From Phycisphaerae bacterium (GTDB lineage Bacteria; Planctomycetota; Phycisphaerae; Sedimentisphaerales; Anaerobacaceae): a DNA stretch of 60,208 bases. The DNA lies in contig JAAYBV010000036.1 of NCBI GenBank assembly GCA_012744475.1, positions 1 through 60,208 on the forward strand, read 5' to 3'. The notes below the pieces were generated by a model. That model was not told the origin of the DNA. It ran no database searches and was given only the letters and a program-made list of their open reading frames with translations. Shown here in pieces: positions 10,620-42,345 of this stretch (within the stretch, counting starts at the first letter, position 1; each line of letters starts with the position of its first letter). Position numbers and translations under genes: made by a program.

Positions 10620-11408
10620 ATGATGACCAAGCCCCGCAAACCAACCGACGTCCAACAACCGCAAACCAACGACAATCCGTGCAACCAGCGCCCCACCGAC
10701 GGGCCGGAAAGCCCCTCGTGCAAGCGGCAGTGCAGTTGCTGCGTCTACGCGCAATGGGTGCGTCCCGGCGTCAGCGTGCTCTTTCCCATGGGCTGGATGA
10801 GCCGCCTGATGTGCGTCAACTGCGACGCCGCGCCGGGCGAGATGCGTCAGGTCTCGCCCACCTTCTCGTGCCCGAACTTCCGCCCGCGCCCGGAGCCCCC
10901 GGTCCGCCTGCCGGAGCCGCCGGCCCCCAGCGACGACGTCCGCTACATCGCCCTGACCAAGGGCAAGTTCGCCATCGTCGACGCCGCCGACTACGAGTGG
11001 CTCAGCAAGTACAAGTGGCACCTCGTCGCGCCGGGCAAGTTGTACGCCGGCCGCAAGGAAGGCGGCAAGACCATCTACATGCACCGCGAGATCATGCAGC
11101 CGCCGCCCGGCATGATGATCGACCACATCAACGGCAACGGCCTCGACGACCGCCGGGCCAACATGCGCACCTGCACGAACCAGCAGAACATGCGGAACCT
11201 CCGCAAGCGCTGTTCCGGCTCGTCCATCTACAAGGGCGTCTATTACGACAAACGCCGCCGCACGTGGTCCGCCCGCATCTGCCACAACGGCAAGAACATC
11301 CACCTCGGCACCTTCCCCACCGAAATCGAAGCCGCCCGCGCCTACGACAAGGCCGCTCGCGAACTGTTCGGAGAATTCGCCTGTCTAAATTTCCCCCAGG
11401 AAATTTAG
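10620..11408 (+). CDS. HNH endonuclease with AP2-like DNA-binding domain
   Basis: The 262-residue product has three parts. Residues about 30-80 are cysteine-rich (CKRQCSCC, CVNCD, FSCPNF) and may bind zinc. Residues about 105-195 form an HNH module with MHREIM, IDHINGNGLDD and NMRTCTNQQNMRN. Residues about 200-255 match an AP2/ERF-type DNA-binding module (YKGVYYDKRRRTWSARI, HLGTFPTEIEAARAYDKAA). HNH-AP2 proteins are typical free-standing homing endonucleases. The start is fixed by AAAGGAGCG. The cysteine-rich N-terminus is unusual for the family. The gene lies next to the repeat-bounded NACHT cassette. Confidence 0.85.
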   Translation: MMTKPRKPTDVQQPQTNDNPCNQRPTDGPESPSCKRQCSCCVYAQWVRPGVSVLFPMGWMSRLMCVNCDAAPGEMRQVSPTFSCPNFRPRPEPPVRLPEPPAPSDDVRYIALTKGKFAIVDAADYEWLSKYKWHLVAPGKLYAGRKEGGKTIYMHREIMQPPPGMMIDHINGNGLDDRRANMRTCTNQQNMRNLRKRCSGSSIYKGVYYDKRRRTWSARICHNGKNIHLGTFPTEIEAARAYDKAARELFGEFACLNFPQEI

Positions 11409-11410
11409 AC
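11385..11410 (+). terminator. Perfect hairpin overlapping the HNH-AP2 stop codon
   Basis: TCTAAATTTCC and GGAAATTTAGA form an 11-pair perfect stem around CCCA. There is no U-tract. It overlaps the end of the coding sequence and directly abuts the word-repeat arm beginning at 11410. It may stop transcription or act as an insertion target. Confidence 0.45.
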
Positions 11411-11521
11411 GTCGCTCGTATCTCGTCGCTCGTCGCTCGTGCCGCCAGAGGCGGGGTAAGACCTCGTCGCTGGTCGCTCGTCGCCCGGGTTTCAACGCCG
11501 TATCTGGTATCTCGTATCTCG
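11410..11521. repeat. Word-repeat arm, left side of NACHT cassette
   Basis: Iterated words built from TCGTCGC/TCGTATC: 11410-11441 (CGTCGCTCGTATCTCGTCGC continuing), 11463-11484 (CTCGTCGCTGGTCGCTCGTC) and 11500-11521 (TATCTGGTATCTCGTATCTC). The first stretch is inverted and nearly identical at 14817-14847 beyond the NACHT gene. Related words flank the S23 gene at 15.5-15.9 kb and occur at 27.2, 31.5 and 32.6 kb. Confidence 0.8.
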
Positions 11522-11552
11522 GAGGCCGCAGGCCGGAGCGGCAATTGGCGGT

Positions 11553-11927: not shown

Positions 11928-14723
11928 ATGGCCAAGTCAAGTCCCAAGCTCAAAGCGACGAAACCAAAGAACGTCTTCACGAAGCCGCTCCAGGCCGATT
12001 TCAAGGCGTTGTTCAAAGCGCTCGGCAGTGGGATCGGGCATACGGTCTGCGGCAAGTGGGAGGAGATCGGCGCCGACACAGCGGAGGCTCTGTCCGCCAT
12101 TGGCGTGGCGACAGAGCCGGAAGAACTCGTATTCCTACTAATTCGCCGATCCATGACCAAAGCCCTGTTTGACCTGATCGGCGAAAGTGCCGGCGGCCAG
12201 CTCACGAAGCCCGAAACGGACACGGACACCCTCTTGGAGCAACTGGACTTCTCCATCTGCGCGGAAGACGTCCAGATCGATCAGAAATTCCTCGATAGAC
12301 CCACTGAACTACCCTTGATAAAGAACCTTCAATCACTTCTGAGACAGTGGCTTGAGGGTCTCGGCGTCGCCGAGCCGGCCGCGGCAGCAATCGTTGACCG
12401 CCTTCCAAGCTACTTTCTCTATGCCCTGAATGAGGAATGGAGAAGGAACGCGAAATCATACCGCCCTTTGCTTGAGGCTCTCGACACACCCTTTGCGAGG
12501 GCGGGCGAGCGCGAGTGGGCATGGAGCACATATTCAGCACTCCTCAGGCGTCGGGTGCAGGAGAGTATCTTTGACGAACCGTTCAGCCTGAGCCAGATAT
12601 ATGTTGGGTTGAACGCATTCTTCTACGAAGAAGAGCCGAACAAGGACTTGACTAACGAAATCGCTCGCACAGGACGCGAGCGACGGCGCGTGGTAATCGC
12701 ACTGAAAGAGGAATTGCAGAATTGGCTTGAGAACCCAAATCCACAAAACGTCATCCGGGTCATCAGTGGCGGGCCGGGCAGCGGCAAGTCTTCATTTGCC
12801 CGTATCTTTGCGGCGCAACTCTCAGAGAACCCAAAGATCAAGGTTCTTTACGTCCCCCTTCACCTGATCGATCCGGCCAGAGACATTGTCGAGGAGATAG
12901 GACGGTTTGTCAGGGACGAAGGTGTCCTGCCGAGCAATCCTTTAGACCCAGATTCGCCCGAGGCAAACCTACTGATCATCTTCGATGGCCTCGATGAACT
13001 GGCTGGCCAGGGTAAAGCCGCAGCGGAGACAGCAAGAGGCTTCATCCGAGAGGTGGAGCGGACTGTCGAGAAGCGCAATTTGCAGCGCGTGAAGCTTCGC
13101 GTCCTGATCAGTGGGCGGGAACTAGTGGTGCAGGAGAACGAATCCGAGTTCCGTCGTCCACGTCAGATACTCAACTTGCTCCCCTACTTCGTCTCGCGCC
13201 CGTCGGACGACAAGCGACACCCCGTTCGCGAGGATGACGAGTACGACGACCCCCACGAGCTTCTGAAGGTTGACCTCCGAGAACAGTGGTGGGAGAACTA
13301 CGGGGTCTTGACGGGACGGGGGTTTGGCGGTCTACCGAAAGAACTGGGCCGCGAAGACCTCCGCGAGATTACCGCCCAGCCGCTTCTCAATTACTTGGTT
13401 GCCCTGAGCTTCACCCGCGAAAAGCTTGACTTCACCAAGGATATCAACCTGAATGCCATCTACGCCGACCTGGTTGGCGCAGTGCATGAACGCGGATACG
13501 AGAAACACCGAATCTACGGTCCCATCCGACACATGAAGGCGGATGAATTCTCTCGCGTGCTCGAGGAGATTGGCTTGGCAGCCTGGCATGGAGACGGACG
13601 CACGACCACGGTCAGAGAAATCGAGGACCACTGCCGCGCCAGCGGCGTTGGCGTCCTGCTGGACGCCTTCCAGGAGGGCGCCAAGGCGGGTGTGACGCGC
13701 TTGCTGGCAGCCTTCTTCTTCCGCCAGTATGGACGCCGGCCCAGCGGAGATCCTACATTTGTGTTCACACACAAGAGCTTTGGTGAATACCTCGCGGCAC
13801 GAAGAGTCGTGCGTGCGATTGAGAGGATCGCTCGCGAGCTTGAACGCCGCGCAAACAATCCCGACGAAGGGTGGGACGAACGAGATGCGCTCAAGCATTG
13901 GGCCCAAATCTGTGGTCCAGCCGCAATCTCCCGGTATCTTCACGCGTTTCTTCTGAACGAGATAGGGCTACGATCCCCTTCACAACTGGTGCAGTGGCAG
14001 GGCCGCCTTGCGACCCTGTTCGGGTATGTCCTGCGACAAGGAATGCCGATGGAGCAACTTCAGATTGGCCCATTCAGAGACGTCCTCTTCCAGTCGCGGA
14101 ATGCGGAAGAAGCGTTGCTTGCGGCCTTGAACGCTTGCGCGCGTGTTACCGGCCAGATGAGCCCCATCGAACACCCCACCCCGACAGCTTTTGGGGCTTG
14201 GTTCAAGCGCATTCAAGGCCAGCGATCAGGCCCCGACTCAACGCTGGCTTCGGAGTGCTTGTCTTTTTTGAACCTCAAGGGCATCACCTTGTATATCAGT
14301 GACTTCTACGAGACAAATCTCAGGTCTTCGGACTTGGAGGATCTGCAGGCCTCCATGACCTGCTTCTCAAATTCAAATCTCTGTGAGGCGAATCTCCGAA
14401 GAGCTATACTGGTTTCAAGCAAGCTGAGTGCAGCCGCGCTGCAAAGAGCCGATCTGCAGCAGGCACGTCTGATGAGAGCCGATCTTCATATAGCTGTCCT
14501 TCGAGAGGCCAACCTGGAAAGAGCTAACCTGGAAGGAGCTAACCTGGAAGGAGCCAACCTGGAAGGAGCCAACCTGGAAGGAGCCAGCCTGGAAAAAGCC
14601 AACCTGGAAAAAGCCAACCTGGAAGGAGCCAACCTGGAAGGAGCCAGGCTGAAAGGAGCCAACCTCCCAACACAATTCCGGGCAAAGGCTTTGGCCAGTG
14701 AGTCCCGCACGAAGGGCGATTAG
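11928..14723 (+). CDS. NACHT NTPase with C-terminal pentapeptide repeats
   Basis: This 931-residue STAND-type protein has an N-terminal region of about 220 residues with no recognised domain, then FSLSQIYVGLNAFFYEEE, a segment common just before bacterial NACHT modules. Walker A GGPGSGKS is at about residues 281-288 and Walker B IIFDGLDEL at about 350-358. A helical middle region follows, then pentapeptide repeats (AxLxx) at about 785-920. Bacterial NACHT proteins are NLR relatives with shown antiphage roles. Here the pentapeptide solenoid would be the sensor or scaffold and the N-terminus the effector; that assignment is inference. ACAGGAAG precedes the ATG. The gene is bounded by inverted word repeats. 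Confidence 0.88.
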   Translation: MAKSSPKLKATKPKNVFTKPLQADFKALFKALGSGIGHTVCGKWEEIGADTAEALSAIGVATEPEELVFLLIRRSMTKALFDLIGESAGGQLTKPETDTDTLLEQLDFSICAEDVQIDQKFLDRPTELPLIKNLQSLLRQWLEGLGVAEPAAAAIVDRLPSYFLYALNEEWRRNAKSYRPLLEALDTPFARAGEREWAWSTYSALLRRRVQESIFDEPFSLSQIYVGLNAFFYEEEPNKDLTNEIARTGRERRRVVIALKEELQNWLENPNPQNVIRVISGGPGSGKSSFARIFAAQLSENPKIKVLYVPLHLIDPARDIVEEIGRFVRDEGVLPSNPLDPDSPEANLLIIFDGLDELAGQGKAAAETARGFIREVERTVEKRNLQRVKLRVLISGRELVVQENESEFRRPRQILNLLPYFVSRPSDDKRHPVREDDEYDDPHELLKVDLREQWWENYGVLTGRGFGGLPKELGREDLREITAQPLLNYLVALSFTREKLDFTKDINLNAIYADLVGAVHERGYEKHRIYGPIRHMKADEFSRVLEEIGLAAWHGDGRTTTVREIEDHCRASGVGVLLDAFQEGAKAGVTRLLAAFFFRQYGRRPSGDPTFVFTHKSFGEYLAARRVVRAIERIARELERRANNPDEGWDERDALKHWAQICGPAAISRYLHAFLLNEIGLRSPSQLVQWQGRLATLFGYVLRQGMPMEQLQIGPFRDVLFQSRNAEEALLAALNACARVTGQMSPIEHPTPTAFGAWFKRIQGQRSGPDSTLASECLSFLNLKGITLYISDFYETNLRSSDLEDLQASMTCFSNSNLCEANLRRAILVSSKLSAAALQRADLQQARLMRADLHIAVLREANLERANLEGANLEGANLEGANLEGASLEKANLEKANLEGANLEGARLKGANLPTQFRAKALASESRTKGD
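14515..14660 (+). repeat. In-frame 15-bp tandem repeat in the NACHT gene
   Basis: About ten near-identical copies of AACCTGGAAGGAGCC encode ANLEG/ANLEK pentapeptides. The identity is at DNA level, not just protein level, so copy number can change by slippage without breaking the frame. Confidence 0.85.
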
Positions 14724-14816
14724 GTTGCGTTCACTCTGGAACTGCTTTGGTTCGCGCGCGAGGGTATCGGAGAAACAGCGCCTTGCGGCGTCACAGCAGA
14801 GGGAAACCCATCTGCG

Positions 14817-14849
14817 CGAGCGACGAGATACGAGATACGAGCGACGCGG
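14817..14849. repeat. Word-repeat arm, right side of NACHT cassette
   Basis: CGAGCGACGAGATACGAGAT continuing to CGAGCGACGCGG is, when reverse-complemented, nearly the same as the arm at 11410-11441. The two arms enclose about 3.4 kb containing the TIR remnant and the NACHT gene. Confidence 0.8.
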
Positions 14850-14874
14850 AAATGATGGCGGAGCCATCATTTCC
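14848..14874. terminator. Perfect 12-bp hairpin between convergent genes
   Basis: GGAAATGATGGC and GCCATCATTTCC form a perfect 12-pair stem with a GGA loop. It covers the last codons of the V-ATPase D gene and abuts the word-repeat arm. The position between convergent genes suggests a terminator, though no U-tract is present. Confidence 0.5.
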
Positions 14875-15484
14875 GGATGATGTCGGTGATTTTCATGAGG
14901 CGAGACGTGTTGTCTCGTTCGGCTTCGGAGAGTTTGTCGTGGATGTAGCGGGTGGTCTCCTGGATTTCGGGGATGACGACGTGCTCGAGGACGTTGACGC
15001 GGCGGCGGGTCATCTGGAGCTCGACGGCCAGCAGGCGCGCCTGCTTTTCCTTCTCGGCCAGCTCGATCAGCAGGTCGAACGCGCGTTCGAGCGACAGGAG
15101 CGCCACGTCCATCTCGCCGGAGGTGGTGGCGTAGCCGTAGCAGATGATCTCGCCCTCGATCTCCTTGAGCAGGTGCGGGACCTTGACGTTCATCACGGAG
15201 GCGAACTGCATCGCCATACTGAACTTCTTCGTCGGGACCGCCAGGGCGGCGGTGGTGTGTTCAGGCTCCATCGAGGCGCGGGCGAGCATGAACCGGCGGA
15301 ACGTCTGCGACAGCTCGGTCTCGACCTTCTGGCGCAAGGGCTGGATGTCCCGCGCGATCTTGATCAACTGCCGCGAAATCTCGTCCCGCTTTTCGCTGAG
15401 CAGCCGATGACCCCGGCTGGCCAGCGCAACCCGCTTTCGCAGCCGCAACAGTTCCATGCGTGTAGCGTTTACGTTGGCTAACAT
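14867..15484 (-). CDS. atpD: V-type ATP synthase subunit D
   Basis: The 205-residue protein matches the D (central shaft) subunit: an N-terminal helix with NATRMELLRLRKRVALASRG, a long coiled coil, and the C-terminal helix with RRRVNVLEHVVIPEIQETTR, the family hallmark. It links catalytic A3B3 rotation to the membrane ring. The length is typical (200-220). The ATG overlaps the stop of the upstream S23 gene by seven bases, so an inserted S23 gene now sits where the B-D junction should be. It is the last gene of the operon. Confidence 0.95.
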   Translation of the reverse strand: MLANVNATRMELLRLRKRVALASRGHRLLSEKRDEISRQLIKIARDIQPLRQKVETELSQTFRRFMLARASMEPEHTTAALAVPTKKFSMAMQFASVMNVKVPHLLKEIEGEIICYGYATTSGEMDVALLSLERAFDLLIELAEKEKQARLLAVELQMTRRRVNVLEHVVIPEIQETTRYIHDKLSEAERDNTSRLMKITDIIRK

Positions 15485-15879
15485 AGTTCGTCGCTCGTCC
15501 CTCGTCGCTGGTCGCTCGCGTTCCTATCCACTCTGCCGATCAGGTTCGTGAGCATGCGCGATTCGTGGTCCAGGTCCTCTGCAAGTTCTTTCAAGTCCGT
15601 GTCGGTCATGTAGCGTCGGCGATGTGCGATGATCGACTGCGTGTCGAGTTCCGCACAAGACCCTAATGAGATGTACAGGAACTGACGGTATTCCTTCGCG
15701 TGGCCACGGACGAAGCCCTCGGCAGTGTTCGAAGGAATCGAGACGGCCGCCTTTCGCATCTGGAGCGTCAGGCCGTAGAGTTCTCCGCGTGGAAACTTGT
15801 CCGTCAGTGTGTACACCCTGTCAACGATTTCGATCCCTTTCTGCCATACCTTCAGCTGCTTGTAGTCACTCACCTTCAT
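15478..15879 (-). CDS. Four-helix-bundle protein, S23 ribosomal intervening-sequence type (copy 1)
   Basis: The 133-residue protein carries the S23/TIGR02436 landmarks: LKVWQKGIEIVDRVYTLT, FPRGELYGLTLQMRKAAVSI, PSNTAEG and the GSCAELDTQ helix. Members are encoded inside 23S rRNA intervening sequences in Leptospira and others, and also at scattered loci; their biochemical role is unproven. Here it lies between V-ATPase B and D. GGAGGGAGACG precedes the ATG. Its last codons (NASDQRRGTSDELC) are written by the iterated repeat itself, and the stop overlaps the atpD start. Inverted arms at 15905-15934 and 15487-15520 bracket it. Confidence 0.88.
   Translation of the reverse strand: MKVSDYKQLKVWQKGIEIVDRVYTLTDKFPRGELYGLTLQMRKAAVSIPSNTAEGFVRGHAKEYRQFLYISLGSCAELDTQSIIAHRRRYMTDTDLKELAEDLDHESRMLTNLIGRVDRNASDQRRGTSDELC
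15487..15520. repeat. Word-repeat arm downstream of S23 copy 1
   Basis: TTCGTCGCTCGTCCCTCGTC continuing to GGTCGCTCGCG is made of 7-8 base TCGTCGC-like words. The reverse complement of 15905-15934 matches it with few differences and one word-length gap. It encodes the C-terminus of the S23 protein. Confidence 0.8.
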
Positions 15880-15904
15880 CGTCTCCCTCCTCCATTGCTT
15901 GCAT

Positions 15905-15934
15905 CGAGCGACGAGCGACAAGCGACGAACGACG
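15905..15934. repeat. Word-repeat arm upstream of S23 copy 1
   Basis: CGAGCGACGAGCGACAAGCG continuing to ACGAACGACG lies between the atpB stop and the S23 start. It is inverted relative to 15487-15520, so the transcript could pair the two arms and loop out the S23 frame. Confidence 0.8.
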
Positions 15935-15941
15935 CCGCAAG

Positions 15942-17342
15942 CTACGCGCCGCCGGCTTTCTGCCGGAACTTGGGCATATACTTCTCGATGAGCTTGACGT
16001 CGATGCGTTTGAGCTCGGCGTTCTCGAACATGCTCAGCAGCTCCCAACCGAGGTCGAGCGTCTGCTGGACCGTGCGGTTCTCGTAATAGTCCTGGGAGAT
16101 GTAACGGGCCTCGAAGGCGTTTGCGAACTTCATGTACTTGCGGTCCTCGTCCGACAGGGCCGCCTCGCCCATGATCGTCGCCAGCTCCTGCATTTCCTTG
16201 CCGCGTGCGTACGCGGCGTAGAGCTGGTTGTAGAGGTCCGCGTGGTCCTCGCGGGTCTTGTTCTTGCCGATGCCCTTGTCCTTCAGACGCGAGAGGCTGG
16301 GCAGCACGTCCACCGGCGGCGCAACGCCCTGGCGGTGCAGCGAGCGGCTGAGGATGACCTGGCCCTCGGTGATGTAGCCGGTCAGGTCGGGCACCGGGTG
16401 GGTCTTGTCGTCTTCGGGCATGGTCAGGACCGGCACCATCGTGATGGAGCCTTTCTTGCCCTTGATGCGTCCGGCCCGTTCGTAGATCGTCGCCAGGTCG
16501 GTGTAAAGGTAGCCGGGATAGCCGCGACGGCCGGGCACTTCCTTGCGGGCGGCGCTGATCTCGCGGAGCGCCTCGCAGTAGTTCGTCATGTCGTTGAGGA
16601 TGACCAGCACGTGCATGTCCAGCTCGAAGGCCAGGTACTCGGCGGCGGTCAGGGCGAATCGCGGCGTGGCGATGCGCTCGATGGCCGGCTCGTTGGCCAG
16701 ATTGATGAACATGACCGCGCGCTCGATGGCGCCGGTGTTGTGCAGGTCGTCGATGAAGAATTGGGCCGCTTCGAACGTGATGCCCATCGCGGCGAAGACC
16801 ACCGCGAAATCCTCGCCTTTGCCGAGGACGGTGGCCTGGCGGGCGAACTGGGCGGTGAGGTCGTCGTGGGGCAGGCCGGAGCCGGAAAAGATCGGCAGCT
16901 TCTGGCCGCGAACGAGCGGGTTGAGGCCGTCGATCGTGGAGATGCCCGTCTGGATGAACTCGTTGGGATAGTCGCGGGCGTACGGGTTGATCGGCTGGCC
17001 GTTGATGTCGAGCCGGTTCGTCGGGATGATCGAGGGGCCGTCGTCCTTGGGGACGCCCAGGCCGCTGAAGACGCGGCCGAGGATGTCGGGCGAGACGCCC
17101 AGCTCCAGCGGCTTGGCCAGGAAGCGAACGGTGCTGCGCTTGACGTCGATGCCGCTGGTGCCCTCGAAGACCTGGACGAGGACCTTGTCGTTCTCGACCT
17201 GGAGGATCTGGCCGTGGCGGATGGAGCCGTCGGCCAGCTCAATGTCGACGATGTGGCCGAACTTGGCCTCGTCGACCATCTCGACCATCATCAGGGGGCC
17301 TTGGATGTTCGTGACTGTCTGGTATTCTTTCACCGATCGCAT
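15942..17342 (-). CDS. atpB: V-type ATP synthase subunit B
   Basis: The 466-residue product is the non-catalytic B subunit of the A3B3 head: N-terminal [23 protein letters not shown]-like [38 protein letters not shown] and the [12 protein letters not shown] region, all standard for NtpB/AtpB. It lacks a P-loop, as expected. The length is typical (about 460). It follows subunit A by 38 bases. Its 3' end is followed by the S23 element rather than directly by subunit D. Confidence 0.96.
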
Positions 17343-17380
17343 GGGACACTCCTACGGCTGTCGGGAAGCTGTTCGCCTCG

Positions 17381-19162
17381 TCATTTGGCGGCGGCCGCAC
17401 CTTGAAGCTGTTTCATCTGGTCTTCGATCTTCCGGCGGATCTGGACGATCTTGTCGATCTCCGTCTGCGGGATGTACTTGGCGCGGGCGATGTCCTCGCG
17501 GACGGCCAGCTTGAAGATCTCCGCCGTCTCGACGCCCGCCTCGATCGCTTCGAGGCCCTGGCGGTGGAAGTGCAGGACGGTCTTGAGCATCTCGTACTGC
17601 TTGACCATCGAGGTGAACGTGTCGACCGCGTGGAAGGCGTTCTGGTGGAGGTAGTCCTCGCGCAGCGACCGCGACGTCTCCAGGGCCAGCCGGTCGCGCG
17701 GCGACAGCGCCTCGGCGCCGACCAGGCGGACGATTTCGCGCAGCTCCGACTCCTGCTCCAGCAGCGTCATCGCCTCGACCGTCATCCGCTCCATCTCCTG
17801 GCCCTGCTCCTTGTCGTCGAAGCAGCCCTTGAGGTATTGTTTGTAGAACGAGTACGAGGTGAGCCAGTCGATGGCGGGGAAGTGCCGCTGGTAGGCCAGC
17901 TCGCCCTTGAGCGACCAGAACACCTTGACCACGTGCAGCGTCGCCTGCACGACGGAGTCGGACAGGTCGCCGCCGGGCGGGCTCACCGCCCCGATCACCG
18001 ACAGCCCGCCTTCCCGCTCCGGCCCACCCAGGCACTTGACCCGCCCCGCCCGCTCATAAAACGCCGCAATCCGGGCGCTTAAATAGGCCGGATACCCTTC
18101 CTCGGCGGGCATCTCTTCGAGGCGGGTGGAGATTTCGCGCATGGCCTCGGCCCAACGGCTGGTGCTGTCAGCCATGAGGGCGACGGTGTAGCCCATGTCG
18201 CGGAAATACTCGGCCAGCGTGATCCCGGTATAGACGGACGCCTCGCGCGCCGCCACGGGCATATTCGACGTATTGGCGATCAGCACCGACCGCCGCATCA
18301 GCGGCTCGCCACTGCGCGGGTCCTTCAACTCCGGAAACTCCGTCAGCACGTCCGTCATCTCGTTGCCGCGTTCGCCGCAGCCGACGTACACCACCACGTC
18401 CGCATCCACCCACTTGGCGAGCTGGTGCTGCACGACGGTCTTGCCCGTCCCGAACGGCCCCGGCACGCACGCGGTCCCGCCCTTGCTGATCGGGAAGAAC
18501 GTATCGATCACGCGCTGCCCGCTGACCAGAATATGCTCCGGCGCCAGACGCCGCGCGATCGGCCGCGGGTTCCGCACCGGCCAGCGCTGCATCAGCTTCA
18601 GCTCGTGTGTCGCCCCCTCGTCGCCCCGGCAGGTCCCCACCGTCTCCTCGACGGTGAAATCGCCCTCGCGAATCCCGGAGATCGTGCCGCTCACGCCCGG
18701 CGGGATCATGATCTTGTGCACCATCAGGGTCGTCTCTTTGACCTCACCGATGATGTCGCCCGGGCCCACCTTCGTCCCGTCGCCGACCGTCGGCTTGAAG
18801 TGCCATTTCTTCTTGCGGTCGAGGCCCGGCATGTCGCTGCCGCGGCTCATGAACGAGCCTTCCACGCCCACCAGATCGTCGAGCGGCCGCTGGATCCCGT
18901 CGTAGATGCTCTCGATCAGCCCAGGCCCCAGTTCCACGCTCAGAGGCGCCTCGGTGTCCACCACCGGCTCACCCGGCCCGATGCCCGTCGTCTCCTCGTA
19001 GACCTGGATCGAAGCCGTGTCCCCGCGCAGCTCCACGATCTCGCCGATCAGGTTCAGCGCGCCGACGCGCACCACGTCGTACATGCGGGCGCCGGCCATG
19101 CCCTCGGCCACCACCACCGGACCGGCCACTTTCACTACGCGACCTACTCTTTTTTCACTCAT
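17381..19162 (-). CDS. atpA: V-type ATP synthase subunit A (catalytic)
   Basis: The 593-residue catalytic subunit has Walker A GPFGTGKT within VPGPFGTGKTVVQHQLAKW, the catalytic glutamate region CGERGNEMTDVL, the ADSTSRWAEAMREIS stretch, and the extra non-homologous region near residues 110-190 that distinguishes V-type A from F-type beta. I chose MSEKRVGRVVKVAGPV at 19162 because the family begins there. It hydrolyses or makes ATP on the cytoplasmic face. It lies 13 bases after subunit F. Confidence 0.96.
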   Translation of the reverse strand: MSEKRVGRVVKVAGPVVVAEGMAGARMYDVVRVGALNLIGEIVELRGDTASIQVYEETTGIGPGEPVVDTEAPLSVELGPGLIESIYDGIQRPLDDLVGVEGSFMSRGSDMPGLDRKKKWHFKPTVGDGTKVGPGDIIGEVKETTLMVHKIMIPPGVSGTISGIREGDFTVEETVGTCRGDEGATHELKLMQRWPVRNPRPIARRLAPEHILVSGQRVIDTFFPISKGGTACVPGPFGTGKTVVQHQLAKWVDADVVVYVGCGERGNEMTDVLTEFPELKDPRSGEPLMRRSVLIANTSNMPVAAREASVYTGITLAEYFRDMGYTVALMADSTSRWAEAMREISTRLEEMPAEEGYPAYLSARIAAFYERAGRVKCLGGPEREGGLSVIGAVSPPGGDLSDSVVQATLHVVKVFWSLKGELAYQRHFPAIDWLTSYSFYKQYLKGCFDDKEQGQEMERMTVEAMTLLEQESELREIVRLVGAEALSPRDRLALETSRSLREDYLHQNAFHAVDTFTSMVKQYEMLKTVLHFHRQGLEAIEAGVETAEIFKLAVREDIARAKYIPQTEIDKIVQIRRKIEDQMKQLQGAAAAK

Positions 19163-19175
19163 CACGAAAACCTTC

Positions 19176-19499
19176 TCAATTGTGCTGGAGGATGTTGATG
19201 CCGGTGGCGAGTTTGAGGACCTTGCCCAACGCCTCGGTGGCAAACCCTGCCGAGGCGGTCGTGAACGGGACCACCACCACGCAGGGGGTCGGCTTGCTCT
19301 CGGTGGGCGCGAACGCCGCATCCGCCTGCAGCGCGACGTTCTCAGCCACCACCACCAGCGCGTAGCCGGCGTCGACGATCTTCTCAGCCGCCGCAACCAC
19401 CTGCTCGGCCTGCTGCTCGACCGCAAACGTGTCGGCCCCGAGCGCCCGGAACGGCATCACGAAGTCCGCGTCACCCAGTACTGCCACTTTGCCTTCCAT
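19176..19499 (-). CDS. atpF: V-type ATP synthase subunit F
   Basis: The 107-residue protein fits subunit F (NtpG type): VAVLGDADFVMPFRALGAD at the start, YALVVVAENVA in the middle and PCVVVVPFTTASAG near the end. It binds the D shaft and modulates rotation. The length is typical (about 100-110). AAGGA precedes the ATG. The stretch between subunit C and this gene is occupied by an S23 gene and its inverted arms. Confidence 0.93.
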   Translation of the reverse strand: MEGKVAVLGDADFVMPFRALGADTFAVEQQAEQVVAAAEKIVDAGYALVVVAENVALQADAAFAPTESKPTPCVVVVPFTTASAGFATEALGKVLKLATGINILQHN

Positions 19500-19513
19500 C
19501 TACTTCGTTCCTT

Positions 19514-19537
19514 GTGAAGCGTGAAACGTGAAGCGTC
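19514..19537. repeat. 24-bp inverted-repeat arm downstream of S23 copy 2
   Basis: Bases 19514-19537 (GTGAAGCGTGAAACGTGAAG plus CGTC) are the exact reverse complement of 19943-19966. The arm is an iteration of a GTGAAGC/GTGAAAC word. Confidence 0.92.
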
Positions 19538-19552
19538 TTTCAGACTCTAAGC

Positions 19553-19921
19553 TCACCCGAGTTTCTTCACCAGATTCCTTAGCATGCGAGTCTCATGATC
19601 GAGCTTCTCAAGCAACGCGCCCTTGGCCTCCAGGGCCACGTATTTCAACTCCGCAGCGATTTCGATCTGCGTCTCCAACTCGGCACAGGAGCCCAACGCT
19701 ACATATGAGAACTGCTTGTATTCCTTGTTGTGGAACCGATTGAACCCTTCGGCGATATTCGACGGAATCGACACCGCCGACCGGCGCATCTGACTGGTCA
19801 GACCGAACACTTCCTGCCGAGGAAAGCCTTCAACCGTCGTGTAAACATCCTTTACGATCTCAATACCTTTCTGCCAGACATCCAAATCTCTGAAGTTCGT
19901 GATCTTCGTGTTCATGCCCAT
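19553..19921 (-). CDS. Four-helix-bundle protein, S23 ribosomal intervening-sequence type (copy 2)
   Basis: The 122-residue product shows the same family landmarks as copy 1: RDLDVWQKGIEIVKDVYTTV, FPRQEVFGLTSQMRRSAVSI, PSNIAEGF and GSCAELETQIEIA, ending LRNLVKKLG. It lies between V-ATPase C and F. The start is ATG 19919-19921 or the ATG six bases on; no good ribosome binding site is visible because the repeat arm lies directly upstream. A perfect 24-bp inverted repeat (19514-19537 / 19943-19966) encloses it. The two S23 proteins are related but their flanking words differ. Confidence 0.88.
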   Translation of the reverse strand: MGMNTKITNFRDLDVWQKGIEIVKDVYTTVEGFPRQEVFGLTSQMRRSAVSIPSNIAEGFNRFHNKEYKQFSYVALGSCAELETQIEIAAELKYVALEAKGALLEKLDHETRMLRNLVKKLG

Positions 19922-19923
19922 CG

Positions 19924-19968
19924 CGCTTCACGCTTCACGAACGACGCTTCACGTTTCACGCTTCACGC
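19924..19968. repeat. Inverted-repeat arm upstream of S23 copy 2
   Basis: CGCTTCACGCTTCACGAACG continuing through 19966 holds several CGCTTCAC words; 19943-19966 is the exact inverse of 19514-19537. The arm runs into the last codon of atpC: the TGA stop at 19963-19965 is inside the repeat word. Confidence 0.9.
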
Positions 19969-21009
19969 GATCCGGTCGAGGATCAACTTGGTGTCCAGTT
20001 GGTTCTTCTTGGCGGTCAGGATCAGGCGGACGGTGCGGATCTCGTGCTCCTTGGCGAGGAAGAACGCGATCACGGGCTGCGGACCCGAGGCGATCTGCAT
20101 TGTCTGCCTGAGGTAGCCCAGCAGGTAGTCGTCGCACTGCTGCTCGACCACGAGGAACGATCCGTTGGCGGCGAGGTAGCCGGCGCCGCTCTCGACGATG
20201 TGATGGTACGGCGTCGCGAAGAACAGCGCCCCCAGCGCCTCGTAAGGCAGATCGAACCCCTGGCGAAGCCGGTCCATCTCGACGAAACCGCCCTCCAGCA
20301 GCGCGTCCCGCGGATCGGCCCCCAGGCTCTTGACGCGCAGCATCGTGCGGAGATTCGTCAGATCGACCTGAATCCGGAACAGGTTCACCAGGAAGACGTT
20401 CCCATCGACAGTCCGCGCCCGTTCGAGGCCGTACGCCGCCTCGGCGCGGTCGATCGCGAAGTCGATCTGGCGGACACTCTTGTTCTGGTAGTACGCCAGG
20501 GTCGCCTGGTCAATCGCGGCCTGCACGTGCTCCGGCAGGATCGCGTAATTCTGCTCCTCGAACGCCTGCGCCAGCAGTTCGGGCGGCGCATTGCCTTCCG
20601 CGCTGTAGTCGGCGCCGACGGGTTTGTCCGTGAGGACCCGGCGCAGGACCAGGCGGAGGTTCGCATAGTCGTTGCGGTTGCGGAAGATCTCCACGATCCG
20701 CTCGTCGAGCATCAGGTCTTCGAAGAGCCGGCGAACCGCCGAGCGACGCTGTCGCAGCATCGTCTCCAGCTCCGCAGCGCCCGCTCCCGACGGGAGCGTA
20801 TACTCCGTACCGCTCAGCGAGCCGGCGGCCGACGTGAAATCCGACGCGTTGGCCATGTCCAGCAGGGCCGTCCGCGTCAGCATCTGCGTCTCCATGCTGC
20901 GGACCTGCGCGGTCTGGAACATGTAGGCGTAGTCGTCCTCGCCCACCGGCGGGTACGTGAAGAAGTCGTGAATCCCCAGGTCCATCTTGTCCAATTGCAT
21001 CTCGGGCAT
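19963..21009 (-). CDS. atpC: V-type ATP synthase subunit C
   Basis: The 348-residue product is the C (AC39-like) subunit that joins the D/F shaft to the membrane ring: largely helical, with DDYLLGYLRQTM and the terminal EHEIRTVRLILTAKKNQLD, a typical ending. Its stop codon is supplied by the inserted repeat word (CGTGAAGCG). The native C-terminus may thus have been trimmed or kept by chance; the ending LDTKLILDRIA looks near complete. Subunit E lies six bases upstream. Confidence 0.92.
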   Translation of the reverse strand: MPEMQLDKMDLGIHDFFTYPPVGEDDYAYMFQTAQVRSMETQMLTRTALLDMANASDFTSAAGSLSGTEYTLPSGAGAAELETMLRQRRSAVRRLFEDLMLDERIVEIFRNRNDYANLRLVLRRVLTDKPVGADYSAEGNAPPELLAQAFEEQNYAILPEHVQAAIDQATLAYYQNKSVRQIDFAIDRAEAAYGLERARTVDGNVFLVNLFRIQVDLTNLRTMLRVKSLGADPRDALLEGGFVEMDRLRQGFDLPYEALGALFFATPYHHIVESGAGYLAANGSFLVVEQQCDDYLLGYLRQTMQIASGPQPVIAFFLAKEHEIRTVRLILTAKKNQLDTKLILDRIA

Positions 21010-21015
21010 GTTCTG

Positions 21016-21627
21016 CTACCGCGACCGACCCGTGTCGGCATCCGTTGAAAAGAGGTCTTTGGCCACCTCGATTTCGAGGTCTTTGCGCGCCTGCTCGACG
21101 AGCACATCGAGGCAGACGTTCGTGCGGACCTTGCCTCGCTGGAGAAGGAAACCGCCTCCGAGATTGTGCTTCTCGGCGGCCAGCGTGAGCCGGCCCTTGT
21201 CCTTGAGCCGGGCGTTGACGTCCGCGACGAGCTGCGCATCGATCCGCGCCTCGTCCCTGCCGGCGATCACCTTCTCGTCGCCGGTCTCGACCGCCGCGAC
21301 CATCAGCCGGGCCATCAGCTCGCGGTACTCTCCGTCGGGAAGCTCGCGGAGCCTCTGTTGGACCTGGCGGAAGACATCGTCCAGCAACGAGGCCTTGGTC
21401 GTCACGTACTCCTTGGCTGTTTCCATCCGCGCGACCGCCAGTCGCTGCGACCGCTCCTCGGCGGCCGCCTTCTCCACCAGAGCCTGAGTCTCCTGTTCGA
21501 ATCGAGCCAGGTCGGCCTTGAGCTTGGCCGTCTCGGCGGCCTCGCGCTCTTCCGCCTGCTTGCGGATCGCCTCGGCCTGCGCCCGCGCGTCCGACAGTAT
21601 CTTGGTTATGACCTGATCAGCTTCCAT
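21016..21627 (-). CDS. atpE: V-type ATP synthase subunit E
   Basis: The 203-residue product is the E subunit of the peripheral stalk. An N-terminal charged coiled coil (ILSDARAQAEAIRKQAEERE) of about 90 residues precedes a globular C-terminal domain with VDVNARLKDKGRL-like and GGGFLLQRGKVRTNV segments. It pairs with the G/H subunit to form the stator. It lies 31 bases after subunit K and six before subunit C, within the operon. Confidence 0.92.
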   Translation of the reverse strand: MEADQVITKILSDARAQAEAIRKQAEEREAAETAKLKADLARFEQETQALVEKAAAEERSQRLAVARMETAKEYVTTKASLLDDVFRQVQQRLRELPDGEYRELMARLMVAAVETGDEKVIAGRDEARIDAQLVADVNARLKDKGRLTLAAEKHNLGGGFLLQRGKVRTNVCLDVLVEQARKDLEIEVAKDLFSTDADTGRSR

Positions 21628-27156: not shown

Positions 27157-27279
27157 ACTCGTATCTCGTATCTCCCCTCGGCTTGGCTCGGGGCAGGCTT
27201 TGCTCGTATCTCGCGAACTGGGAACTGCAAACTGAGAACTGCAAACTGAGAACTGCAAACTGAGAACGGCCAACTGCCG
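27157..27279. repeat. TATCTCG words and GAACTGCAAACTGA tandem repeat
   Basis: Bases 27157-27174 and 27201-27215 carry CTCGTATCTCG words. From 27214 to 27279 a 14-bp unit GAACTGCAAACTGA is repeated about three to four times. Further on (27305-27335) CCGAAATCCCC words occur. The gap 27082-27578 holds no gene that I can support. Confidence 0.7.
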
Positions 27280-31350: not shown

Positions 31351-31472
31351 CTCGTGCGGTTGGCGAGGGCGGAGGGTAGATCACCATCCGGTGGCGGAAT
31401 GGCAGTGCGGCGGGATGGGGGCTTCGCGCGGGCTACGAGCGGTAGCTGCGAATCGCAGGTAGCGCGGCGGAA

Positions 31473-31495
31473 CGTATCTCGTATCTCGTATCTCG
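31473..31495. repeat. TATCTCG word-repeat arm, left of dinD remnant
   Basis: CGTATCTCGTATCTCGTATC plus TCG is inverted relative to 32571-32607. It lies exactly where the dinD reading frame loses its 5' end. Confidence 0.8.
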
Positions 31496-31501
31496 CCACG
31501 C

Positions 31502-32242
31502 TTCGCGAAAGTCGTCGACAAAGCTATAACCGCTTGCCAGACAGCCGGTTATGATCCAAAGGACCATTTTGCCGATATCAGCAAAATGGTCGATCTCGGC
31601 TCGGGGGCCAAGCGAGAAATCGATGATATCGCGCTGAGCCGATACGCCTGCTACCTTATCGCCCAGAACGGGGACCCCGCCAAGGAACAGATCGCGTTCG
31701 CGCAGACCTATTTTGCCGTCCAGACCCGCAAGCAGGAGGTCATTGAGAAGCGTCTGGCCGAGGCGGAGCGGGTCGGGGCGAGAAGGCGGCTGAGCCGGTC
31801 GGAGAAGGAGCTTTCCGGCGTGATCTTCGAGCGGCTCGGCGATGGGGAGAGCTTTGCGCGGATTCGCAGCAAGGGCGATACGGCTCTGTTTGGTGGCCGC
31901 ACCACGCAGGACATGAAACGCAAGCTCGCCGTGCCGGCCAGCCGGCCGTTGGCCGACTTTCTCCCGACCATCACGATCAAGGCCAAAGACTTCGCCAACG
32001 AGATCACCAACTTCAACGTCAAGCAGAACGACATGCGTACGGAGACGAGGATAACGGGCGAGCACGTGAGGAACAACGAAGAGGTACGTCGTCTGCTCGT
32101 GGATCGCGGCATCGTGCCCGAAAGGCTGCCTCCGGGCGAAGATGTGAAGAAGGTGGAACGTCGCCTCGCGACCGAGCAGAAGAAGTTGCCCAAGCAGGTC
32201 AAGGGTCTCGAAGGCCCCAGCACCGGGGAAGACGCCGGATGA
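31502..32242 (+). pseudogene. dinD: DNA damage-inducible protein D (dinD), 5'-truncated
   Basis: Translation from 31502 gives FAKVVDKAITACQTAGYD, then HFADISKMVDLGSGAK, LSRYACYLIAQNGDPAK, FAQTYFAVQTRKQE, and the C-terminal PPGEDVKKVERRLATEQKKL. This matches E. coli DinD along most of its length (LSRYACYLVVQNGDPAK and GQTYFAIQTRRQEL). About the first 40-50 residues are missing; the frame runs into the TATCTCG repeat. An internal ATG at 31586 could give 218 residues, but without the complete N-terminal domain. DinD inhibits RecA filaments in E. coli and is often found near restriction systems. Confidence 0.8.
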
Positions 32243-32538: not shown

Positions 32539-32607
32539 GGGGCGAGGCATGCCTCGCCCCTACCGATTCACGAGATACGAGATACGAGCGACGAGATACG
32601 AGATACG
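32539..32607. repeat. R2 palindrome and TATCTCG word-repeat arm
   Basis: A perfect R2 palindrome occupies 32539-32560. At 32571-32607 follow CGAGATACGAGATACGAGCG and CGAGATACGAGATACG, the inverse of the arm at 31473-31495. The pair encloses the dinD and methylase remnants. The gap 32448-32609 otherwise holds no gene. Confidence 0.75.
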
Positions 32608-32609
32608 CC

Positions 32610-34055
32610 CTATTCGACGGCGAACCAGTCGTCGGTCAGGGTGCTGTCTTCGAGCCAGTGCTCTTCGAGCAGGGCCCTGTCGAGCTCGTCGACGCGGCAG
32701 TCTCCGTTGAGGTCGCCGACCGGAGGCACATAGCCGGGCAGCGACTGAGCGGCCTCGCACGGGTTGTTGTAGACGTTGATCGTGACCGCGTCGGTGCCGA
32801 TGTACTCGCCGTCGAAGGCGGCCAACTGCAAGACGTACTGGCCCGTCGCGGCCAGCATGACGTTCGTGTCCTCGGCGTTCGGCGTCTCGATCATGGCATC
32901 GCCTTTGGCCGGCTCCGTCTTGACCGTCCAGACCACCGTGTAGGGCATGACCGTGCCATCGTCGGTGACGGTCGCATCGAGCGCGCCGGTCCTGGGTCCA
33001 CCCTCCAGCCAGGTCACGATGTCGGGGCCGGCGTCCACCTGCGGAACGAGATTGTCGGAAAGGAACGTAAAGATCGGGCCATAGATCGGATCGTTTTCGC
33101 TGCCGACGTAGGTATCGACCGCCCAGTAGTACCGCGTCTTGCGTTCGGCCTGCACCGTCACGGAGGTGACGTTCTGCGCGCTGACGACCTGTATCGCCTC
33201 GGGGTTGGTGAAATCGACCAGCGCCTGATAGTCGTCGGTGAAGTAGACGTCGACGAGGACCGGCTCGCCCGGCACGCAGGGATCGGGCAGGGTCCAGCTC
33301 AGCGTCACCTGGCCCGGCGAGACGAGGGCGCCGTCGGCGGGATGCGGATCGAGCAGCGCGGTGGCGGTCAGCGTGGTCCGGCCGGGGTTGGTGACATCGT
33401 AGTCCAGGTGCAGGACGCCCTGGCCGCGATAGGCGATGATCCAGCCATTGTCGATGTACGTTTGAAGCGTCGCGGTGTCGTCGCCGTCAAGGATCAGCGT
33501 GCCGGCGCCGACGTCCATCAGGCCCTTGGCGCTGGTCATGCGCAGGTCGGCGGCGTAGACCGTGCCGCCCCGCAGGTTCGCGGTGCCGGTGCCGGCAAGG
33601 CCGGGGATGACCAGCTCATCCTCCAACTCGATGACGCCGCCGGTCATGTTGAGCGTACCGATGCCGTCCCAGCCGAGCTGAAGCGATCCGGTCGCGAAGA
33701 GGCCGCCGCTGACATTCAGGACGCCGTGGCCGGACGGGCTGTCGACGCCAACGTAGGCGCCGGAGGCGGTGAGCGAGCCGCCGGTGATGTCCAGGTTGGT
33801 CAGGACACCGCCGTTGCCGACCCGCAAGGTCTCGCAGATGGCTTCGATACCCTCCTGGACCACGCAATGCGTGTTCTCCGGCATGTCGATAGACGCCGGG
33901 TCGGTTTCGGTCGGAACTGTGTCCGTGTTCCAGTTCTGCGGCGTGCTCCAGAGCGAGTCGGGCCCGCCGTCGTCCCAGGAAATCAACGCCGAGGCGCCCC
34001 CGCCCAGCGCCAGCAACAGGACCAAAGAGACCAAGCACGTCATTCTGCTGAACAT
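32610..34055 (-). CDS. Secreted protein with beta-repeat region and dockerin-like C-terminus
   Basis: The 481-residue product starts with a signal peptide (MTCLVSLVLLLALGGGASA). Residues about 70-230 have repeated short beta motifs (VGNGGVLTNLDITGGSLTAS, GVLNVSGGLFATG, GTLNMTGGVI), like autotransporter-type PEP repeats. An Fn3-like segment (PADGALVSPGQVTLSWTLPD) and a PKD-like segment (VDAGPDIVTWL) follow. The C-terminus GDLNGDCRVDELDRALL is a dockerin type I-like calcium loop, probably single. GGAGG precedes the ATG. It is likely a cell-surface or extracellular scaffold-associated protein; its ligand is unknown. Confidence 0.8.
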   Translation of the reverse strand: MFSRMTCLVSLVLLLALGGGASALISWDDGGPDSLWSTPQNWNTDTVPTETDPASIDMPENTHCVVQEGIEAICETLRVGNGGVLTNLDITGGSLTASGAYVGVDSPSGHGVLNVSGGLFATGSLQLGWDGIGTLNMTGGVIELEDELVIPGLAGTGTANLRGGTVYAADLRMTSAKGLMDVGAGTLILDGDDTATLQTYIDNGWIIAYRGQGVLHLDYDVTNPGRTTLTATALLDPHPADGALVSPGQVTLSWTLPDPCVPGEPVLVDVYFTDDYQALVDFTNPEAIQVVSAQNVTSVTVQAERKTRYYWAVDTYVGSENDPIYGPIFTFLSDNLVPQVDAGPDIVTWLEGGPRTGALDATVTDDGTVMPYTVVWTVKTEPAKGDAMIETPNAEDTNVMLAATGQYVLQLAAFDGEYIGTDAVTINVYNNPCEAAQSLPGYVPPVGDLNGDCRVDELDRALLEEHWLEDSTLTDDWFAVE

Positions 34056-41140: not shown

Positions 41141-42184
41141 ATGGCGATGAAGGAAAGTCACATTACGATTCTCGGGATCGAGACGAGCTGCGACGAGACG
41201 GCGGCGGCGGTCGTCACCGATGGTCGGCAGGTCCGTTCGTCCGTGGTCGCCTCGCAGACGGCGCTGCACCAGAAGTACGGGGGCGTGGTGCCCGAAATCG
41301 CCTCGCGGGCGCACATCGAGAATCTGCTGCCGGTGCTCACGGAGGCGATGCACCAGGCCGGCGTCGGCAGGGACGAGATCGACGCGATTGCCATCGCCAA
41401 CCAGCCGGGATTGGCCATCGCCCTGGTCGTGGGAGTCACCGCCGCCAAGACGCTGAGCATGATGTGGGGCAGGCCGCTGGTCGCGATCAACCACCTTCAC
41501 GCCCACCTCCAGTCGGCGATGCTCAACGAGGAGCAAATCGAGCTGCCGGCGGTGGCCCTGGTCGTCTCAGGTGGGCACACCTCGTTGTACGACTGCGAGT
41601 CGGCGCTGGACCTGACGCTGCTGGGCTCGACGATCGACGATGCGGCCGGCGAGGCGTTCGACAAGGTCGCGACCATCCTGAAGCTGCCCTACCCCGGCGG
41701 GCCCAGCATCGAAAAGGCCGCGCGTAACGGCGACCCCAAGGCGATTCGCTTTCCGCGCTCGATGCTCGGACGCGACTCGCTGGACTTTTCCTTCAGCGGG
41801 CTCAAGACCGCCGTGCTGTATCACTGCCGGGGCAAGGACATGAAGGGCGCCGATTGCGTGGACCGGATGAGCGAGCAGCAGATCGCCGACATCGCGGCCT
41901 CGTTTCAGGCGGCGGTTGCCGACGTGCTGGTCCGCAAGACCCGACGCGCCGCCGACCGGATCGGCGCCAGGACGGTACTGCTGGGCGGAGGCGTTGCCGC
42001 CAACGGCGCGCTGCGCGAAGCGATGGAGAGGATGTGCCTTCGCCACAAACCCCCGCGGCGGCTGCTCGTGGCTCCCAAAACCTATTGCACGGACAACGCG
42101 GTCATGGTAGCCTCGCTGGCGTATCACAAGTACAAGGCCGGCCTGTTCGCGGACCTGACGCTGGAACCCAACTCGACCGGCTGA
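41141..42184 (+). CDS. tsaD: tRNA N6-adenosine threonylcarbamoyltransferase
   Basis: The 347-residue protein is TsaD: ILGIETSCDETAAAVV at the N-terminus, the metal-binding NHLHAHLQSAML (HxxxH-type site), VSGGHTSLYD, DDAAGEAFDKVA and the C-terminal LLGGGVAANGALRE. It transfers threonylcarbamoyl to A37 of ANN-decoding tRNAs with TsaB, TsaC and TsaE. The length is typical (about 340). No Shine-Dalgarno is seen at ATG 41141 or at the in-frame ATG 41147, matching a leaderless message from the adjacent promoter. larB and nnrD follow on the same strand. Confidence 0.96.
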   Translation: MAMKESHITILGIETSCDETAAAVVTDGRQVRSSVVASQTALHQKYGGVVPEIASRAHIENLLPVLTEAMHQAGVGRDEIDAIAIANQPGLAIALVVGVTAAKTLSMMWGRPLVAINHLHAHLQSAMLNEEQIELPAVALVVSGGHTSLYDCESALDLTLLGSTIDDAAGEAFDKVATILKLPYPGGPSIEKAARNGDPKAIRFPRSMLGRDSLDFSFSGLKTAVLYHCRGKDMKGADCVDRMSEQQIADIAASFQAAVADVLVRKTRRAADRIGARTVLLGGGVAANGALREAMERMCLRHKPPRRLLVAPKTYCTDNAVMVASLAYHKYKAGLFADLTLEPNSTG

Positions 42185-42189
42185 AAAAG

Positions 42190-42345
42190 AAACACGAAAT
42201 TCGAAATCCAAAATCCGAAACAAGCACGAATGACAGAAATCCCAAATTCAAAACGAGTCATCCGGCAGGCCACAGCGTTTCGGTCATTGGGATTTGGCGC
42301 CTTGGATTTGTTTCGGATTTCGATATCCGGATTTCGAATTTCTTG
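42190..42345. repeat. GAAATTCGAAATCC inverted-repeat element without a gene
   Basis: The left arm (42194-42250: CGAAATTCGAAATCC, AATCCGAAACAA, GAAATCCCAAATTC) and right arm (42281-42345) are inverted copies. They share perfect GAAATTCGAAATCC and AATCCGAAACAA blocks plus AAATCCCAA / TTGGGATTT. Only about 30 bases separate them. It has the layout of the S23-bearing elements but no ORF. It runs into the 5' end of larB. Confidence 0.8.

Follow-up and report, generated by a model that had tools for sequence, protein, structure and literature searches.

An S23 gene in a V-ATPase operon as a probable copy of a widespread minimal mobile element with inverted arrays of a lineage-specific heptanucleotide word

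The segment lying between the V-ATPase C and F genes of a Phycisphaerae bacterium is probably a copy of a very widespread minimal mobile element of ~430 bp, in which a gene for an S23 protein sits between inverted arrays whose word, 7 nt long (sometimes 8 or 9), is peculiar to the protein lineage. The DNA under study, here called the window, is a stretch of 60,208 nucleotides that constitutes contig 6 of the host draft genome (G000; 5.75 Mb, 118 contigs, 99.6% complete). On other copies of the class, the arms arrive together with the gene, the element stands between genes of an operon, on or beside the stop codon of the upstream gene and mostly in the sense orientation, and copies decay to remnants, with arms also occurring free of the gene. 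The class is wider than the sequence-only reading of the window had supposed, being widespread in bacteria and present in some archaea. We place high confidence in the mobile element, an intermediate degree in a word-reading protein, and less in a mechanism that depends upon an mRNA stem. The features to which the argument refers are as follows, in positions of the window.

19176..19499, minus strand: atpF (V-ATPase F; PF01990, E 1e-11)
19514..19541, minus strand: right arm in the operon sense, the downstream word array, with the perfect 24-nt inverted repeat at 19514-19537
19553..19921, minus strand: S23a gene, for a four-helix bundle protein of 122 aa (PF05635, E 3e-36; TIGR02436, 117.5 bits; structural model)
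19921..19967, minus strand: left arm in the operon sense, the upstream word array, with the inverted-repeat partner at 19939-19966; overlaps the atpC stop codon; outer limits set by eye
19963..21009, minus strand: atpC (V-ATPase C/AC39; PF01992, E 4e-43), its TGA stop inside the arm
14814..14852, minus strand: word array after atpD, GTCGCTC and GTATCTC mixed, with no S23 gene of its own
15478..15879, minus strand: S23b gene of the second element (E 3e-34 to PF05635 for the longer open frame 15478-16047; ATG start picked by inspection)
15489..15518, minus strand: downstream word array (GTCGCTC) of the second element, through which the S23b frame reads to the atpD start codon
15905..15934, minus strand: upstream word array of the second element
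42182..42344, no strand assigned: candidate mini-element, a mirror pair of heptad arrays (42182-42224 and 42308-42344) about an 84-nt loop, without S23

The operon runs on the minus strand in the order E, C, S23a, F, A, B, S23b, D. Direct comparison bears out the anatomy that had been read from the letters: 19514-19537 and 19943-19966 are exact reverse complements, both arms iterate a GTGAAGC/GTGAAAC word, and the TGA that ends atpC (19963-19965) is part of the arm word. The gene enclosed between V-ATPase C and F is indeed of the S23 type, with 124.3 bits to PF05635 (cut-off 33.8) and 117.5 bits to TIGR02436 (cut-off 24). If one mismatch is allowed the arms lengthen to 19514-19541 and 19939-19966 (28 nt, 96%), and by eye the outer word array continues to about 19921. 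No longer perfect inverted repeat than these 24 nt exists in 18800-20800, and none of 500 dinucleotide shuffles reaches that length (maximum 20); together with the locus controls of the named and fresh sets described below, the shuffles rule out a chance origin of the arms. The S23a frame is flanked by complementary ends, as the definition of an intervening sequence (IVS) requires, and its locus is the atpC/atpF gap, not a 23S rRNA gene.

A second S23 element (15478-15942), with the word GTCGCTC, lies ~4 kb from S23a between V-ATPase B and D. By eye, each of the seven PF05635 genes of G000 lies between word arrays, with seven different words among them: CAGTTGA, GTGAAGC, GTCGCTC, an AAGTTTC-like word, TGGAATAC (8 nt), TTACGAT and ATCCGAA. 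The inverted alignment scores, in the same order, are 32, 51, 40, 23, 48, 22 and 45, five of the seven being at least 26. Because the words differ among the copies, and S23a and S23b are 57% identical, no recent burst is seen in this genome.

Inverted arms of this kind are a general property of canonical S23 genes. PF05635 is present in 35 of 41 related genomes and S23 genes in 102 of 199 sampled genomes of the phylum, the host being counted in both; an inverted score of 26 is reached by 18 of 29 loci from the relatives (two of the 29 cut). A larger named set comprises the best 80 of 589 confirmed candidates from a capped one-motif scan, a choice that favors canonical S23; by its record titles it spans some twenty phylum-level groups, including Bacteroidota, Clostridia, Acidobacteria, Patescibacteria, a cyanobacterium, and Methanophagales archaea, and one archaeal locus (L134) is a clear case of word arrays round S23. 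Five loci lacked full 200-nt flanks, leaving 75. Periodicity in a flank, defined as 18 or more matches out of 28 at lag 7 or 8, is found at 72 of these 75 loci versus 33 of 371 control placements made at other positions of those loci, and periodicity in both flanks at 51 versus 5. An inverted Smith-Waterman score of at least 26 is attained by 57 of 75 loci; among swapped partners the figure is 4 of 225, and among placements 5 of 371. In direct orientation, 11 of 75 loci score as high. In the lag spectrum, 7 (58 loci) and 14 (44) stand out, with 8 (16) less pronounced, such that the arms qualify as heptanucleotide arrays, i.e., tandem degenerate 7-nt words in intergenic DNA. Since the 371 placements fall mostly, by position, in coding DNA, the gene-flank controls considered below weigh more.

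The thresholds for the named set were chosen after the relatives' and named loci had been inspected, and the same thresholds were applied to a fresh set, the best-scoring loci of a new draw from the phylum, from which 4 of 28 loci cut by contig ends were omitted. Here, the inverted score is reached at 23 of 24 loci versus 2 of 72 swapped partners; 23 of 24 have one flank at 18 or more, and 20 of 24 have both at 17 or more. The sequence-only reading had staked its generality on arms being the rule for S23 genes elsewhere, and for canonical loci, named and fresh alike, that expectation holds. Among 150 unique S23 genes, the period is 7 in 100, 8 in 20 and 9 in 3, with no clear period in both flanks in 27; the inverted score is reached by 110.

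Not every branch of the Pfam family obeys this rule. In the same phylum, the Avd genes that belong to diversity-generating retroelements (DGRs) show inverted arms at 0 of 12 loci and periodicity at 1 of 12; the 12 are what remained of 20 after 8 truncated at contig ends were set aside, and 4 of them fall short of the NF033474 cut-off. At 10 of the 12, the locus also contains an open frame with a YxDD motif of the reverse-transcriptase type. Likewise, a divergent PF05635 subfamily that accounts for 25 matches in one genome of the phylum and 21 in another (G041 and G053; loci L322-L351) shows inverted arms at 0 of 18 uncut loci (12 of 30 cut), though one member (L327) has weak lag-7 arrays on both sides. 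These two controls assign the arms to canonical S23 genes. The two genomes are the richest in PF05635 matches and had been candidates for a recent burst, which was rejected in that their copies are of the divergent subfamily; their gene cores are up to 91% identical to each other and belong to other biology. Two further arrangements were seen in passing: a PF05635 match ~700 bp from a DGR Avd gene (G092:C68:125427-126742), and a pair of S23 matches with starts separated by 435 bp, roughly the length of an element, perhaps elements in tandem (G127:C1:594893-595645).

That the gene and its arms form one inserted unit is supported by comparison of V-ATPase junctions among the five congeners with the operon (G000 and G002-G005; all slices include the stop codons). 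At the C-F junction, G004 carries the element with the same word and an in-frame TGA in its S23 gene, while the slice without S23 measures 27 nt in G005, 70 nt with a leftover stretch of word in G002, and 104 nt in G003. At F-A, the element is in G004, with arrays of 80–87 nt lacking S23 in G002 and G003 and a mere 16 nt in G000 and G005. At B-D, elements are present in G000, G003, G004 and G005, each with a different word, and 35 nt in G002. In other genera, the C-F gap at the 16 loci where F was called next to C ranges from -20 to 215 nt and holds no S23; the remaining loci had a different frame after C or were cut or unsuitable. Comparison of this junction in relatives was the check that the sequence-only reading had put forward for an inserted segment, and the S23-less gaps and remnants, along with the empty plasmid sites of other copies, agree with insertion. 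The relatives are too diverged for a target duplication to be readable at the window's own C-F site. Divergence is uneven within this single operon (window 14867-21627): A, B and D are 87–98% identical to their counterparts in G002-G005 and F 72–78%, with C and E only 52–58%.

Evidence for insertion also comes from cyanobacterial plasmids. With S23a as query, 31 plasmid records match at E 1e-5, mostly from cyanobacteria, and no phage record gives a tblastn match at that level. Empty plasmid sites reveal the insertion of ~430 bp. The first site reads AAAAAGTAATTAACAAAT when empty (Nostoc linckia, Aulosira) and AAAAAGTAAT-element-GTAATTAACAAAT when filled (Trichormus, Scytonema), with GTAAT duplicated and 428 bp gained between sequences ~98% identical. 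At the third site, where filled and empty forms are 90–93% identical, TTCTA is duplicated in one copy (L173), and a second filled copy (L183) has the mismatched TTCTG on its right-hand side. Both the GTAAT and the TTCTA duplications include all or part of the upstream gene's stop codon. In all, an exact 5-bp duplication is found at two of seven plasmid sites and an imperfect one (TAATG/TTATG) at one more; the other four give no readable duplication because their flanks have diverged or been rearranged. The inverted ends of these other copies of the class thus arrive with the gene, as the terminal inverted repeats of a transposon do, and only S23 lies between the arms, with no transposase of the element's own.

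The plasmid copies also display variation and decay. A single element lineage, with a single word, occupies three plasmid contexts, and a copy in Aulosira lies within the 3' end of a gene, the counterpart of which in the empty relative is longer. At the first site, Nostoc C052 has a truncated S23 and Brasilonema the arms with only a short loop; these are remnants and mini-elements. In the Brasilonema plasmid (L178, 540-720), at the site of the Trichormus element, a short G+C-rich loop stands between the word arms in place of S23.

Both neighbors run in the S23 direction at 52 of 66 named loci with both called, and both against it at 2; a simple open-frame rule underlies these calls as well as the stop distances and the counts of three-frame stops. 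In 41 of 54 cases, the start of the upstream array lies 15 nt or less from the stop codon of the upstream gene; downstream distances are biased by the choice of the earliest candidate start codon. In the plasmid cases that are clearest, empty sites have gaps of only 3–13 nt, such that the placement may reflect selection for harmless sites, not targeting. A copy in Nostoc edaphicum is an exception, being antisense to both its neighbors, nrdB and nrdA. Stops in all three frames occur in the upstream arm in 47 of 123 elements on the sense strand versus 23 of 123 antisense, a difference that is suggestive only, and on the sense strand of that arm G exceeds C in 89 of 105 elements and is exceeded by it in 13.

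Word arrays also occur apart from S23 genes. In the window, S23-less heptad arrays lie at 11405-11539, 14814-14852, 27212-27278, 31472-31508 and 32560-32613, several of them carrying GTCGCTC and GTATCTC, the words of the B-D elements in G000 and G005. By eye, a 931-aa frame at 11928-14723 has a P-loop (GGPGSGKSS) and C-terminal pentapeptide-like repeats. Across 400 kb of G000 (window included, an N stretch set aside), 20 lag-7 arrays are found, of which two are the S23b arms and several bear element words; by comparison, lags 9, 12 and 14 give 10, 5 and 9 arrays, and lags 5, 6, 8, 10, 11 and 13 only 0–2 each. Six of the lag-7 arrays have a mirror partner 18–121 nt away (score 24–35, three at 26 or more), which is too close for S23 to lie in between. 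The idea that more S23 genes bring more solitary arrays was dropped, as the trend is not clean: the G006 draft (84% complete), with no S23 match, has 12 arrays in 400 kb, and two other S23-less genomes (G034 and G038) together have 1 in 186 kb. The arrays in G006 indicate that arrays can outlive the gene or exist without it.

The word itself is tied to the protein. Among 123 elements with a clear period, whose pairs are not independent, 19 of 22 pairs at 70% amino acid identity or more share a word in the same sense and 0 of 22 in antisense; sharing falls to 22% at 60–70% identity, ~4% at 50–60% and ~1% below. Related S23 proteins have words in common even across phyla, as with a planctomycete element (L017) and cyanobacterial plasmid elements that are 67–74% identical in protein and share CAGAAGT/CAGGAGT. 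The period, too, follows the protein tree, with 12 changes between 7 and 8 versus 18.8 in shuffles (0 of 200 as low). The S23 protein is under purifying selection: dN/dS is 0.03–0.14 in all but two of the 17 computable pairs; one of the two has 0.20, and the other, a nearly identical pair with very few changes, 0.86. A further 14 pairs are saturated at synonymous sites. Because synonymous sites are near or beyond saturation in several of the word-sharing pairs, the shared word reflects more than recent common ancestry of neutral DNA.

The most serious competitor to the mobile element is the interpretation first placed upon the window, namely, that this is an IVS of mRNA, the arms of which pair in RNA, leaving S23 in the loop of a stem that RNase III cuts, with the copy persisting because the RNA is processed. 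We consider it doubtful. It has the precedent of the Coxiella 23S rRNA element, which is of like anatomy and, in the accessible text of its description, has a stem cut by RNase III in vitro (PMC4990558), and it accords with the sense orientation within operons and with a strong predicted fold of the S23a sense strand, in which the arms form one long stem (z -4.76, 0 of 100 shuffles). However, S23b in the same operon has a weak predicted fold (z -1.85, 3 of 100 shuffles), and the Nostoc nrdB-nrdA copy, at least, is antisense to both neighbors. The order of word variants partly agrees between arms (103 of 123 elements above the word-shuffled mean, mean z 0.90, 14 with p ≤0.05), as pairing would have it, but DNA-level copying between arms would explain this equally well. 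Selected pairing in the sense RNA would favor G.U over A.C mismatches, and there is no clear bias: G.U-compatible mismatches number 165 versus 145 in 115 elements (p 0.28) and 41 versus 33 in 24 fresh elements (p 0.42). RNA processing, which may occur all the same, gains no support thereby, and the mismatches between arms give no signal of selection for RNA pairing. Nor did an Rfam scan of 16 S23 loci, chosen for missing or odd neighbors, return a match, and hence no rRNA. What stands of the mRNA proposal is the Coxiella-like anatomy, the sense position in an operon and the S23a fold; what does not is RNA pairing as the keeper of arm likeness. The arms look at least as much like the lineage-specific end sequences of a mobile DNA element, and the original interpretation as a whole is partly supported.

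Structure bears upon a second alternative. The S23a model (pLDDT 96.6) has the four-helix bundle fold, aligning with XCC0516 (2GSC) at TM (query) 0.87–0.92 and with 2RLD at 0.76–0.79, both of which are structures of five chains. It also resembles Avd, with TM 0.76–0.78 to 4DWL and 0.74–0.77 to the DGR ribonucleoprotein (8UB7, 8UBB, 8UBE), at Foldseek E values of 0.015 or more in each case; in sequence, S23a scores 22.4 bits with NF033474 (Avd), short of the cut-off of 80. From this likeness to Avd, both alone and in the ribonucleoprotein, and from the sense orientation, one might propose a retroelement, in which S23 acts with a reverse transcriptase in trans, slippage lengthens the arms, and fold-back synthesis copies one arm from the other. 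This is improbable, for G000, 99.6% complete, has no RVT_1 match, nor do G020, G008, G031, G013 or G001, all of which have several S23 genes (7 in G000, 13 in G020, and 9 each in G008 and G031). Reverse transcription in trans is thus unlikely to be needed in residence.

The co-variation of word and protein, together with the conservation of the protein, would also be expected if S23 were a resident gene that controls itself, the arms being its operator or mRNA sites and the element not mobile at all. We give this little credence, since it leaves aside the word-free empty sites, the target duplications, the occurrence of one lineage in several contexts, the second array past the stop codon in mirror orientation, and the mini-elements formed by S23-less arms. 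As a complete account autoregulation is contradicted by the empty sites, and it may exist besides. Finally, that the arrays are ordinary slippage repeats, with S23 genes nearby by coincidence, has like arrays elsewhere in the genome without S23 to recommend it and is refuted, to the point of being scarcely conceivable, by the mirroring of one word on both sides (57/75 versus 4/225 swapped) and by the absence of arrays at empty sites.

Several related systems have been described. The Coxiella burnetii 23S rRNA IVS, according to the accessible text, is 428 nt long with a 28-bp terminal stem, has two or three tandem GACAGAT heptamers and a degenerate one before the S23 frame, and has been termed a selfish genetic element (PMC4990558); both the element and S23 are absent from the ribosome structure, as far as the accessible text goes (PMC13392368). 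The window element has the same protein family, size, terminal inverted repeats and heptamers but sits between protein genes of an operon, rather than in 23S rRNA; the Coxiella account, in its accessible part, gives heptamers for that one element, not as a family-wide mirror pair, and includes neither a target duplication nor a link between word and protein (PMC4990558). The rRNA IVSs look like a special case of the S23 mobile element.

Dispersed tandem heptamers, too, have been reported from intergenic DNA of Nostoc and Xanthomonas (PMC4692102) and of Beggiatoaceae (PMC4679880), in the available portions of these papers, including 70 and 75 convergent pairs in two Xanthomonas genomes (PMC4692102). 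Those repeats are described there as generally unassociated with mobile elements and as lacking a detailed literature (PMC4692102), and their role is left open in the Beggiatoaceae study (PMC4679880); S23-related terms do not appear in the available text of either paper. The words of the cyanobacterial plasmid elements, TAGGGAG and CAGAAGT, are in the same style. Such heptanucleotide repeat arrays are also called STRR-like.

Avd of the DGRs has the same fold as S23a with only weak sequence similarity, and is mostly encoded beside a reverse-transcriptase-like frame without inverted word arrays, whereas S23a of G000 has no reverse transcriptase beside it. The relation between Avd and S23 has been noted before, in the accessible text (PMC10053308), 23S rRNA IVP is listed among CRISPR-adaptation-linked domains (PMC10910872, accessible part), and a review of 23S insertions does not include S23 in its accessible text (PMC2672173). 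A link of S23 genes with word arrays or target duplications was not found in the open-licence PMC literature, though such a paper may exist behind a subscription or as a preprint.

MITEs, and REPINs with their transposases, are short mirror-ended elements that lack catalysis of their own and have a partner gene in other copies. S23 elements are likewise short, mirror-ended and devoid of their own catalysis; unlike MITEs and REPINs, they have as partner no known transposase, and the short word repeated in the arrays at their ends differs between lineages. To our knowledge, no function is known for the S23 protein.

Returning to the mobile element, one can imagine how so little DNA might move. 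A ring of S23, given the Avd-like bundle and the five chains of its two solved relatives, would recognize its own word array at both ends, strand-specifically, and would draw the ends together, with the transposition chemistry supplied in trans by another enzyme; minis and solo arrays would then be passengers or remains. A Y1 transposase match is found in 33 of 41 genomes, G000 having one weak match, and none is found in 8 of 41, including the S23-bearing drafts G029, G019 and G024; neither the reverse-transcriptase nor the Y1 matches singled out a helper that would move the element. At the RNA level, folding of the arms may in addition loop out S23, which would make the effect on the host operon milder, by analogy with the rRNA IVS. 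More speculatively, and with somewhat more doubt than belief, we suggest that canonical S23 is the end-reading subunit of an unrecognized transposition system with no catalytic enzyme of its own, a five-membered ring that reads a private lineage word in a 7- (or 8-, 9-) nt register on one strand and whose ~430-bp elements are placed at operon stop codons with a 5-bp duplication. The cyanobacterial, Xanthomonas and Beggiatoaceae heptamers and the S23 inserts of 23S rRNA would be its footprints, and Avd a relative recruited to, or derived from, reverse transcription.

Two old puzzles, the role of the S23 protein and the source of the 7-nt repeats, may perhaps be eased in this way. Joining S23 with the heptanucleotide repeats makes of them a single testable system, a protein and the word that it should bind. 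For the host, this is a very small mobile element able to occupy an operon such as that of the V-ATPase with no gene broken. For the family, the results suggest that the Avd subunit of the DGRs shares one history with the rRNA intervening sequences, and the code that relates word to protein might be predictable from protein sequence.
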